From: Microvirga vignae
GTDB lineage: Bacteria; Pseudomonadota; Alphaproteobacteria; Rhizobiales; Beijerinckiaceae
Length of the DNA: 64,000 nucleotides
Assembly: GCF_001017175.1 (NCBI RefSeq)
Contig: NZ_LCYG01000020.1
Coordinates: forward strand, 124,001 to 188,000
Reading direction: 5' to 3'
Position 1 is the first letter of the stretch. Every line of letters begins with the position of its first letter. Position numbers and translations under genes: made by a program. This document shows, in pieces, positions 37,603-58,368 of the stretch. Under the pieces are notes generated by a model. The model did not search any database and was not told the DNA's origin. It was given only the letters and a program-made list of their open reading frames with translations.

Positions 37603-37645
37603 GTGCTTGACCGAGGGAGACAATCCTTTGGCAGTTTGGGCCGCC
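37603..37645 (+). promoter_or_regulatory. 21-bp-period motif, site 1
   Basis: Reads TGCTTGACCGAGGGAGACAA, then TCCTTTGGCAGTTTGGGCCG. The two TTG[A/G]C half-sites are 21 bp apart with GACAAT between. It lies 44 bp before the start of the exported protein gene at 37559. Confidence 0.6.
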
Positions 37646-37846
37646 GATCCGGCCGTGAACGGGAGATGCCGCGATGACGAGCTGCATGCAGCAGCCTGAC
37701 TGCCGCCCATGCCTGCCATCAAGGCATCATGGTCTGGCTCCGGGAGCCCTCATCCGGCATTCGACCCAAGTGGATCGGGATCACTCTCCAGGGCTAGCCA
37801 GTGGGCCGCTGCATTGGCGCCCTCACCACTGGACGGGCGTCGCTGA

Positions 37847-37883
37847 CTTAAACTGCCAAGATATTGTCCCATTCTGTCAAGCA
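37847..37883 (-). promoter_or_regulatory. 21-bp-period motif, site 2
   Basis: On the minus strand it reads TGCTTGACAGAATGGGACAA, then TATCTTGGCAGTTTAAG; TTG to TTG is 21 bp. It lies 236 bp before the exported protein gene at 38119. Confidence 0.6.
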
Positions 37884-38118
37884 GGCTGCCTTGGCCGACC
37901 TACAGTGATCCCATGGGCAATCCTTGGTCTCTCCCGTGGCGGAGTGTCCTGACACTCGGATCGTCAGCTTGTCCAGGTCCCAATGGAGACCTGTCCTGGG
38001 CGTGCACGGGCAATGTGAGCCCCGGCATCAGACTGTATCCCGCCACGCCAGACCAAGCCTCAAACCGTTGGTCCCATCTGAGATGGTCTTGGACGGATGC
38101 CTTTTGGAGGAGGACACG

Positions 38119-38541
38119 ATGCGAATTGCGGGACTTGTGGGTGCCACTGGGCTTGGCCTTGGCATTGCGTCGACGTGGGTCTCGGGCGCGATCGCGCAGG
38201 GAGGCCTAGCAGCCTATCAGGGCGCTTGGCTGTCCGGGGGCGCGGATTGCGCAGAGGTTTACGCGTCCGCGGGGAAAGGAACCTCGTTCAAGAGGCCGGT
38301 CGACATCTTCGCGCCCGCCTTCATCGTCTCCGGCAGCCGCCTGAGGACGCCTCAGGCATCGTGCCGCATCAAATCGGTTCGGCCGAGCGGTGATCGTCAG
38401 CTCTTGGTCCTCGGATGCGCCAACGCCGTGGCGGGCAACGAGGTGCGGGTTCTCATGGCGCCGCAACCGGACGGCTCGCTCAAGCGCTACTTCAACGCCC
38501 AGGACACGATGGGCACCGCGTACAAGCAATGCTCGCGATAA
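38119..38541 (+). CDS. Small exported protein, unknown function
   Basis: A 140-residue protein with a signal peptide (IAGLVGATGLGLGIASTWVS) and a compact mature part with four cysteines (GGADCAEVY, QASCRIKSV, VLGCANAV, YKQCSR). The AYQGAWLSGGADCAEVY start and the LRTPQASCRI segment resemble small periplasmic Rhizobiales proteins. GGAGGAGG lies before the ATG at 38119. It is followed by another exported protein gene 97 bp later. Confidence 0.65.
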   Translation: MRIAGLVGATGLGLGIASTWVSGAIAQGGLAAYQGAWLSGGADCAEVYASAGKGTSFKRPVDIFAPAFIVSGSRLRTPQASCRIKSVRPSGDRQLLVLGCANAVAGNEVRVLMAPQPDGSLKRYFNAQDTMGTAYKQCSR

Positions 38542-38638
38542 GATCCCTGGGGACAGCGGCTTTCGCAAGCCTTCCCCGGTCACGGTCAAGAAAGGCGAGC
38601 TCAGACGAGCCATCAGTCGAATAACAGCAAGGGGTGCG

Positions 38639-39076
38639 ATGGTGACTTCTTTGAGAGCATCGACAAAGCGACAGGTTTTTTCCGTGGCGGCCGCAAACTT
38701 ACTCGGCTTGGCCCTTGCGACGCACTCGGCTCTCGCGGACAACCCTGCTCCCGCAGCGGCGCTGGAGATCGGGGCGAGGTCGGCGGGGATCTCATCCGAA
38801 CGGTACGGATCCGCCAAGGCACCAACACGAAAGCCGACGAGGAAGCAGCCTGACCAGTCCGGCAACTTCGTGTACGGGATCATCAACCAGATCCGGGCCC
38901 AAAGCGAGGAGCTCTGCGCCCGCTACGGCAGCCCGGGCGATTGCCTGGAGGAAGCCGAGATCTGCCTGACCATGCGCGACTCGGAGGACAATCGGGTCAG
39001 GCTGTGCCTCAACACCATTCCCGGAGAAGGCGGAGGCGACGGAGGCGCTGTGCAGAAATCACGCCTGAGACGGTAG
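38639..39076 (+). CDS. Small exported protein, unknown function
   Basis: A 145-residue protein with a signal peptide (VFSVAAANLLGLALATHSAL, cleavage near ALA-DN). The middle is Lys/Arg/Pro-rich (KAPTRKPTRKQPD). A conserved C-terminal part holds four cysteines (ELCARYG, DCLEEAEIC, RLCLNTIPG). AAGGGG precedes the ATG at 38639. It probably belongs with the preceding gene. Confidence 0.6.
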   Translation: MVTSLRASTKRQVFSVAAANLLGLALATHSALADNPAPAAALEIGARSAGISSERYGSAKAPTRKPTRKQPDQSGNFVYGIINQIRAQSEELCARYGSPGDCLEEAEICLTMRDSEDNRVRLCLNTIPGEGGGDGGAVQKSRLRR

Positions 39077-56912: not shown

Positions 56913-57020
56913 CGTGTGATCCTCCCTGGAACTTCCCACCGGAGCAAAGCCGTGGGAGCGTCGAACTGCGCTTTGCCGGATCGACAGCCGGTACGGTCAC
57001 TCTAGGCCCGCCGGAACCCT

Positions 57021-57063
57021 GTGCTTGACCGGTGGGGACAATCTCTTGACAATTTTGGCCGCC
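57021..57063 (+). promoter_or_regulatory. 21-bp-period motif, site 7
   Basis: Reads GTGCTTGACCGGTGGGGACA, then ATCTCTTGACAATTTTGGCC; TTG to TTG is 21 bp. It lies between the AraC stop and the DUF2092 gene and is nearly the consensus. Confidence 0.65.
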
Positions 57064-57069
57064 AGCACG

Positions 57070-58176
57070 TCAACCCGGGTGGCCTTCACCACGCCAGGCG
57101 GTGGGCGTCTGACCCGACCAGCGCCGGAAGGCGCGGGTGAAGGCGCTGGCCTCGGAATAGCCCAGAGCCGCCGCGATCTGGCCCAGCGGCACCTCGGTAT
57201 ACTGCAGAAGCTGGCGAGCGATCTCGAAGCGGATTTCGTTCGTGATCGCCCTGTATCCCATCCCGCTGCCTTTGAGGCGGCGGCTCAAGGTGCGCCGGTG
57301 CATTGCCAGCAGGTCGGCAATATCCTCCGCAGAGCAGCGCTTGCTCGTCAGCCGGGTACGCAGCAGCCGCCGAATATCGTCTGAAAGAACGGAACCCTGA
57401 GCGCCCTTCATCTGCTGGATCCGTTCCTCCAGCAGGGCCCGCACCATGGGATCGGCGCCAGCGATCCGGCGATCCAGATCACTGGTCGGGAGGACGATGA
57501 CAGCTGTCTCCTGATTGAATCGGACGGGAGCCCGGAAGTGGCGCCGGTAGGGCTCCTGATCTGCTGGTGCGGCCCGTGGCAAAAGCACCTCAATCGGGTT
57601 CCAGTCGGGGCCGCACAGAGCGCGTATGGCGTTGAGCGCTACAGCGAGGGATCCGTCCGAGATCTGATCCGCGCTCTCGGCCTCGGGCTGGTAGACCGAG
57701 AAGGAGAACAGGGCCGTGTCTCCGATGAGCCTCAGCGACGGGACAGCCCCCCGGTTCTGTATGCTCAGGTTTGACACGAGCGCTCGCATGGCGTCGCCTA
57801 GCGTCTCCGAATGCAACATCAGGCGCCCGACCATGCCTAGCGACAAGATCGTGGCGCGCTGGCCGACCAGCAGCCCAAAATGCGGGCAGCGGGTGCGTGT
57901 CACACTCAGGCTGAGCAGTCGGCCCAAGGCAGCATGCGGGATCACGTTCGTGCCATCGTCGAACAGATGCGGGTCGAGCCCCGCCTCGCGGATAACCGGA
58001 TCGGGATCGATGTCGAAATCGCGCAGGGCCGGGGCAATCTCCTTGGCAACCCCTAGATGGATGTAGCCGGGCGGAAGGGTTCGCCCGGGGCCTGCCAGAA
58101 CAGAGGGTGAGATTGATACGCGTTGTCCGAGACTTCTACTCGTACTCTTGGACGCAGGCCCGATGTCGTTGGTCAT
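57070..58176 (-). CDS. AraC-family regulator with arabinose-binding-like N-terminal domain (OruR/VirS type)
   Basis: A 368-residue regulator. The N-terminal ~230 residues resemble the OruR/VirS-type sensing domain (DPVIREAGLDPHLFDDGTNV, CPHFGLLVGQRATILSLGMV). The C-terminal part is the AraC double helix-turn-helix (AEDIADLLAMHRRTLSRRLK, IAAALGYSEASAFTRAFRRW). AAAGGG precedes the ATG. Motif copies flank it at 57021-57063 and 58333-58368, which makes it the best candidate for the regulator that binds the 21-bp-period motif. A DBD-only relative is at 53073. Confidence 0.88.
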   Translation of the reverse strand: MTNDIGPASKSTSRSLGQRVSISPSVLAGPGRTLPPGYIHLGVAKEIAPALRDFDIDPDPVIREAGLDPHLFDDGTNVIPHAALGRLLSLSVTRTRCPHFGLLVGQRATILSLGMVGRLMLHSETLGDAMRALVSNLSIQNRGAVPSLRLIGDTALFSFSVYQPEAESADQISDGSLAVALNAIRALCGPDWNPIEVLLPRAAPADQEPYRRHFRAPVRFNQETAVIVLPTSDLDRRIAGADPMVRALLEERIQQMKGAQGSVLSDDIRRLLRTRLTSKRCSAEDIADLLAMHRRTLSRRLKGSGMGYRAITNEIRFEIARQLLQYTEVPLGQIAAALGYSEASAFTRAFRRWSGQTPTAWRGEGHPG

Positions 58177-58332
58177 CGCCAGGCCCTTTCGCAGAGTTCT
58201 GAAATCTATCTTGGGACCGCATAATTGGTCCGCTCGAACGCCAACGCCCTGACCGGATCAGGCTAACATAGGCTAATCGGCAATTGAGGCCCAATCACGA
58301 AAAATGCCCGCTCTTTTCCCTGCCGCTGTCCC

Positions 58333-58368
58333 GTCTGGTCAAAGGCCTGTCTTGAAGCGTCAAGCCGG
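58333..58368 (-). promoter_or_regulatory. 21-bp-period motif, site 8
   Basis: On the minus strand it reads GGCTTGACGCTTCAAGACAG, then GCCTTTGACCAGACGG; TTG to TTG is 21 bp. It lies between the AraC gene (157 bp before its start) and the broken symporter gene at 58450. Confidence 0.5.

Follow-up and report, generated by a model that had tools for sequence, protein, structure and literature searches.

What reads a motif that recurs between the genes of a bacterial chromosome, and what does it control? This question is raised by a 64,000-nucleotide stretch of the Microvirga vignae genome (assembly GCF_001017175.1, contig NZ_LCYG01000020.1, positions 124,001 to 188,000; hereafter the window), in which a 39-bp motif occurs at eight sites, intergenic as judged from the list of open reading frames (ORFs) and the likely gene starts. 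Microvirga is a genus of soil bacteria. The data presented below make it very probable that the motif serves as operator for an AraC-family activator, with a dimer of the protein encoded at 57070–58176 predicted to occupy two half-sites and to bring about class II activation. The family of the reader and the promoter geometry are strongly supported.

An initial annotation of the window had listed eight copies of the motif, and all eight are present at, or a few bases from, the positions it gave, with a TTG-to-TTG distance of 21 bp in every one. The sequence TTG[A/G]C, which it assigned to both half-sites, is found in both halves of six copies; the copy at 43300 starts with TTGAT, and that at 42307 reads TTGAT...TTGCC. 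The layout is as it described, but its motif ends too early, because the second half-site has a GGNC box of its own, making two halves of 16–17 bp that are alike.

Sites were scored with a 39-bp matrix built from 67 sites in 24 named Microvirga loci, none of them in the window, although the 67 training sites had themselves been located with a first matrix made from six window sites. The window contained nine matches scoring at least 15 (the same nine at a threshold of 5), with scores of 17.3–54.7, and these included all eight sites. Mechanically called ORFs overlap some of them, such as 43300, where the likely gene start is 43214. The sites and the two AraC-family genes beside them are as follows.

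37605..37643, plus strand: operator, score 45.4; −10-like box TAGGAT at 37581–37586 (minus strand), 18 bp away
37844..37882, minus strand: operator, score 45.3; −10-like box TACAGT at 37901–37906 (plus strand)
40734..40772, plus strand: operator, score 41.0; −10-like box CAGAGT (minus strand)
42307..42345, minus strand: operator, score 17.3, the lowest of the eight
43300..43338, plus strand: operator, score 46.0; −10-like box CACAAT
52772..52810, plus strand: operator, score 52.3; −10-like box CATACT
53545..53583, plus strand: degenerate operator, score 20.1, the ninth window site, upstream of the gene at 53073–53477
57023..57061, plus strand: operator, score 54.7; −10-like box TAGAGT at 56999–57004 (minus strand)
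58327..58365, minus strand: operator, score 29.2, between araC and a divergent SBF-type transporter gene; no YANNNT at 18 bp
57070..58176, minus strand: AraC-family regulator with PF12625 (Arabinose_bd) and HTH_18 domains; prime candidate binder
53073..53477, minus strand: AraC-family protein of 134 aa with a DNA-binding domain only (DBD-only; Pfam); possible second reader

An AraC lineage as the candidate reader

The protein encoded at 57070, which the initial annotation had also put forward as a reader, is a member of the PF12625 subfamily (Arabinose_bd, E 1.1e-38, 133.6 bits against a cut-off of 27.6), and its DNA-binding part matched HTH_18 (E 2.8e-20) and HTH_AraC (E 1.7e-10). The 24 named loci found in a protein search with it all belonged to Microvirga, and 20 of them carry sites. 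When 48 genomes of the genus were searched with a sequence pattern of the motif, 32 contained it, and the reversed control pattern was found in none of the 48. A close relative of the protein (E 1e-120 or better, a limit chosen after the gap between 1e-120 and 7e-21 had been seen) was present in 34 of these genomes, while the other 14 held nothing better than 7e-21. All 32 motif-bearing genomes hold the close AraC, which is missing from 14 of the 16 genomes without the motif (Fisher p 2.5e-10, a value that counts genomes rather than evolutionary events and is uncorrected for relatedness). The two motif-less exceptions, G003 and G045, have relatives of only 56–57% identity; G041 has a relative of only 56%, yet the motif is present.

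The association extends beyond the genus. The pattern was found in 2 of 233 other genomes of the family (G156 and G159), both of which have an AraC of 75% identity. A protein search covering 32 chosen genomes among these 233 detected an AraC of 75–77% identity in five, and all five have three to four sites scoring at least 27 in the surrounding 19–20 kb. Three of them, from the same genus as G156, gave no pattern match but contain four sites each, scoring 27.2–46.3, in the 20 kb around araC. The other 27 protein-searched genomes showed neither an AraC better than E 2e-72 nor a pattern match. At the level of the order (297 genomes), 15 loci outside the own genome matched the pattern and one matched the reversed control, so a few of the 15 may be due to chance. 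AraC homology lies within 1.5 kb of three of these loci, and these have the top three scores (37.8, 34.9 and 34.2) among the 13 scorable loci. One of the three, L161, has a near-perfect double TTGACANTTTGGGACA just upstream of a stretch with homology to an AraC of 43% identity whose recognition helices are the same. Counted without a tree, motif and AraC co-occur separately several times. By eye, L161 (positions 1–2683, from another family) places the operator between the AraC gene and a divergent sulfatase-like gene.

If an AraC protein reads the operator, the DBD-only protein could be the main binder, acting without a ligand, or could share or compete for the sites. In its recognition helices it is almost identical to the full-length protein (MHRRTL and YSExSAFTRAFRRWSG in the alignment), its gene adjoins the pta site, and its own promoter carries a site in seven of the nine named loci that have the gene; these sites are strong, scoring 39.2–50.0 (L037, L038, L039, L040, L044, L056 and L057). 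In L044 and L056 the adjacent genes, ORFs of 154 aa, were counted as DBD-only although a distance rule had labelled them full-length-like. No site scoring at least 20 was found before the gene in L043 and L059. However, stretches of 19–21 kb contain only the full-length AraC in L131 and L047 (the same record), L120, L121, L132, L134 and L135, which makes it unlikely that the truncated protein is the principal reader or a competitor for the sites; a DBD-only gene may still lie elsewhere in these genomes.

Operator anatomy and promoter geometry

The operator is a true 21-bp direct repeat, each half of which has two boxes one helical turn apart. The profile of 138 distinct sites correlates with itself at an offset of 21 (r 0.79), as compared with −0.24 to 0.16 at 13 other offsets between 14 and 27. 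Each half-site approximates CTTGAYmGttTGGGACA on the motif strand, which is TGTCCCnnnCGRTCAAG on the gene strand; the gene strand can therefore be summarized as TGTCCC-N8-AAG, twice. Together with the co-occurrence described above, this repeat agrees with the initial proposal that an AraC-family dimer bound to direct repeats is the likely reader. By eye, two operator flavours could be distinguished among L037–L060 and L116–L135: TTGACCG...GGACAATC..TTGACAGTTT and TTGATCG...GGGACAAGCGCTTGGCATTT, the latter often preceding Gly/Tyr-rich exported proteins. The flavours perhaps reflect paralogue specificity.

The flanks were analysed in 140 sites scoring at least 20 with full context, a set that excludes 42307 (17.3). 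Downstream of the motif, information exceeded 0.4 bits at three positions only (+1, +20 and +24), and the latter two are part of a YANNNT −10-like box located 18 bp from the operator. This box was found at exactly 18 bp in 85 of the 140 sites, in 49 of 91 sites after thinning by flank similarity, in 10 of 15 sites of the own genome, and in six of the eight window sites scoring at least 20 (not at 58327 or 53545). At other downstream offsets (5–59) it was seen in at most 18 of 140 sites, and in the opposite direction (5–49) in at most six. A −10-like box at this distance implies that the operator covers the −35 position of a promoter pointing away from the 5′ end of the motif, and for this reason the motif had appeared to lie on the wrong strand: as the initial annotation observed for the clearest sites, it is on the strand opposite to the gene, and read on the gene strand the operator ends 18 bp before the −10-like box. 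The operator would accordingly be situated just upstream of the −35 element or overlapping it, the geometry expected for an activator.

The −10-like box at a fixed spacing belongs to the conserved unit, as it would if the motif were simply recognized as a promoter by an alternative sigma factor, without AraC. This is very improbable, since what is conserved is a double direct repeat of 39 bp with a 21-bp period, the −10 element is loose (YANNNT), and the presence of the motif tracks one AraC lineage; the sigma-factor-only promoter was rejected on the direct-repeat structure. It is still harder to regard the sites as pieces of a dispersed mobile repeat, a possibility raised in the initial annotation. 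Copies are numerous in each genome and cluster around a single region, but the motif contains 42.9 bits of information against 2.4 bits over the 60 bp upstream of it (140 sites), site orientation follows gene direction, and sites recur 5′ of the same genes across species. (The upstream value for the own genome alone, 12.6 bits, is inflated by the small number of sites, n = 15.) Because the flanks are not conserved, a mobile repeat was rejected, and we give it next to no weight.

The motif is genuine and occurs far more often than chance would allow. The best score in 6.4 Mb of first-order random sequence was 14.4, with none reaching 15, and 320,033 bases from elsewhere in the own genome (portions of contigs C79 and C1–C10) gave a single match of at least 10, at 12.2. 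A scan of the own genome (G000, 6.47 Mb, 165 contigs) and of relatives, which the initial annotation had suggested, bore out the enrichment: the pattern with up to three mismatches had 13 matches in the own genome and its reversed form none, in addition to the 32 of 48 genus genomes noted above. A control pattern shifted out of register by one extra base in the first gap had no match in the own genome and matched 3 of the 297 order genomes (control 1). A pattern based on TTG proved too narrow (three matches, one in the control). Column-shuffled matrices gave a mean of 0.03 matches versus 78, a test with some circularity, as the matrix trained on the named loci had served to choose its 12 own-genome sites; in the cleaner direction, the matrix from six window sites matched 20 of the 24 named loci at a score of at least 11. 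Chance similarity in GC-rich intergenic DNA, with which the two weakest window sites (42307 and 53545) taken alone and some low-scoring order-level matches (down to 8.3) are compatible, is ruled out for the main sites by the random, reversed-pattern and shuffled-matrix controls and has a negligible probability. The two weakest sites, considered singly, could be chance matches or decayed sites.

Several observations weigh against an operator read by this AraC lineage. G003 has an AraC of 56% identity with no site in the surrounding 19 kb and no genome-wide pattern match, and G045 has no pattern match and only one site, of 23.4, upstream of a pta-like gene. Four of the 24 named araC loci, 5.2–11.4 kb long, contain no site. 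At the order level, 12 of the 15 loci have no AraC homology within 1.5 kb, including the fourth-scoring one (L154, 32.1), and the homology at the third-scoring one (L157) consists of two short fragments with no intact gene. YANNNT is absent at 18 bp from 55 of the 140 sites, and two window sites (40734 and 42307) have no target gene. Finally, the genus genomes contain 1–32 matches to the AraC at E 0.001, weak ones included, so the exact binding protein is not proven. At that limit, weak matches again included, G015 has 30 and G020 has 32.

Relation to described operators and regulators

The following comparisons draw on excerpts of the cited papers, and the literature searches on the matches listed for each query. 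The closest parallel is the ARG box of ArgR, an AraC-family protein of Pseudomonas that responds to arginine and controls a many-gene regulon: TGTCGCN6GNAA in tandem with 5 bp between the copies, giving 16 + 5 = 21 bp (PMC10963909). The Microvirga operator, TGTCCC-N8-AA, has the same 21-bp period, with TGTC and AA at the same positions, and likewise serves a many-gene regulon. It does not conform to the ARG box consensus, however, having C instead of G at base 5, T instead of G at base 13 and a conserved CGRTCAAG block, and its targets and taxa are different. The SphR operator of Pseudomonas aeruginosa consists of two direct-repeat half-sites, TGNCCSNNRNNSNCC, 6–8 bp apart and upstream of the promoter (PMC3900636). 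Here too the repeat lies upstream of the promoter and the AraC gene is divergent from a target, whereas SphR, which responds to sphingosine, has a core regulon of only three transcripts (sphA, sphBCD and cerN; PMC3900636) and a different second box. At the Pm promoter, XylS recognizes two 15-bp direct repeats of two boxes each, contacted by two recognition helices, and the title of a paper cited in the same source states that the XylS and polymerase sites overlap (PMC5481539). The direct repeats with two boxes each and the probable AraC-family reader are shared features; the XylS boxes are TGCA and GGTA, and a single catabolic promoter is controlled.

Among the matches listed, the 57070 protein scored below the cut-off of all 24 NCBIfam models; the best two were QhpR (NF049968, equivalog; 227.3 bits, cut-off 250) and GliR (NF050186, equivalog; 130.4 bits, cut-off 570). 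The best solved relative by sequence, VirS, matched over both domains (PDB 8rcx, E 1.6e-27) but is distant; VirS is a protein of Mycobacterium tuberculosis. The GliR site lies over the −35 region, as does the Microvirga operator, but the GliR motifs, YYGGCGHTDTYSGMC and GGAYAWCGCCG, are different (PMC8151288). Among the matches listed, no paper on the QhpR regulator and no VirS operator were found. MSMEG_0307 (PMC4266540) and MtlR (PMC4514859) were considered and not used as close models.

The initial annotation knew of no described regulon with this operator. In a mostly open literature, judged by titles and the beginnings of abstracts, none of the Microvirga papers listed describes the operator, and searches with the operator sequence and related terms listed no paper on it; a search for DUF3141 listed no paper containing that name. 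The claim of novelty thus holds within these limited searches, although the operator is built like known AraC-family operators such as the ARG and SphR boxes. The regulon is new and of a known general kind; what is unusual is its spread over many operons and the presence of a DBD-only paralogue under the same operator.

Target genes and a proposed mechanism

Targets were listed as the longest ORF in range, which includes false ORFs (for example at 37605, 40734 and L118 8271), and were judged by recurrence, by Pfam and by inspection; labels such as antiporter and DUF3302 were given by eye, as was the judgement that several small exported proteins recur. The sites precede several operons, as the initial annotation had supposed for the window, and they do so in relatives too. 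The operator at 52772 precedes pta (51643–52623, minus strand), which is followed on the same strand by ackA, DUF3141, fabI, a membrane-fusion-protein-like gene and phasin genes. Pfam confirmed pta, ackA, DUF3141, fabI (enoyl-ACP reductase) and phasin, and we infer that the genes from pta to phasin form one operon. The operator at 57023 faces a DUF2092 gene (Pfam; minus strand, start at 56912 or 56939), 3′ of which are a gene for a small protein (55801–56103) and one for an MscS-type channel (Pfam; 53601–55790). On the minus strand, the site at 37605 precedes a gene for a small exported protein (37269–37559), with 45 bp between operator and gene start, and a second predicted target, a Ca2+/H+ antiporter-like gene named by eye (36071–37219, minus strand); the site at 43300 precedes a gene for a Gly/Tyr-rich exported protein, also on the minus strand. 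The target of 37844, on the plus strand, encodes another small exported protein (38119–38541). The site at 58327 has a counterpart at the same place in several relatives and reads towards the transporter gene; it may also autoregulate araC.

Across relatives, pta-ackA, DUF2092-MscS, the DBD-only AraC gene and exported proteins are recurrent targets, as is the SBF-type transporter gene divergent from araC. Genes for PPK2 and for an L-serine dehydratase, the latter having what looks like a Tat leader, also recurrently follow the operator, both in relatives and at other places in the own genome. Carbonic anhydrase, DUF900, DUF6894 and 2-hydroxyacid dehydrogenase were each found once (Pfam), the last being nearest to D-lactate dehydrogenase models but below their cut-offs. 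The envelope, stress and carbon-storage label given earlier is supported in part: genes of these types do recur, but so do those for acetate-pathway enzymes, polyphosphate kinase and serine dehydratase. This mixture points to energy limitation, overflow or envelope stress, and oxygen limitation, acid or osmotic conditions are candidates for the inducing signal.

We propose that a dimer of the 57070–58176 protein, or of its close paralogues, would bind both halves of the operator on one face of the DNA, the 21-bp spacing corresponding to two helical turns. The gene-proximal half would overlap a poor −35 element and end 18 bp before the −10 element, so that the bound dimer could recruit RNA polymerase by class II activation. 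The protein is probably switched by a small-molecule ligand of its PF12625 domain. The predicted regulon would comprise acetate-pathway enzymes, serine deamination, polyphosphate and polyhydroxyalkanoate (PHA)-granule proteins, transporters, a mechanosensitive channel and exported proteins of the envelope; the DBD-only AraC would belong to it in several species and may feed back on the same operators. A further-reaching version, which we consider possible but somewhat short of probable, is that one AraC/PF12625 lineage acts as a genus-wide global regulator of carbon overflow, polyphosphate and PHA storage, and the envelope. Its circuit could have two tiers: all sites would be read both by the AraC that binds a ligand and by a DBD-only AraC whose own gene is under this operator, with feedback or competition from the truncated paralogue.

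For a genus in which the literature matches described above showed no such regulon, these results define the operator exactly, together with its promoter geometry, a candidate regulator and a list of targets. An operator common to DUF2092, DUF3141, MscS, PPK2 and acetate kinase genes places the uncharacterised families among them in a shared context that can be tested. That the operator goes with an AraC lineage in different genera and families may help to work out how PF12625-type AraC proteins recognize their DNA.

Downstream of 40734, the sequence at 40640–40710 (minus strand) contains only AAGGAG and an 11-codon ORF, and no target gene was found there; a lost target gene, a leader peptide and a small RNA are candidates. 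The site at 42307 is flanked by the 3′ ends of two convergent genes in the ORF list, with no target identified. By eye, the SBF-type transporter gene of the window (58411–58821, plus strand) appears internally deleted in comparison with an intact 295-aa copy at L037:8830–9717, and the operator facing it in the window (58327) is weaker. A gene resembling those of extracytoplasmic function (ECF) sigma factors, also recognized by eye, is located at 34610–35158 (plus strand), near the regulon cluster.

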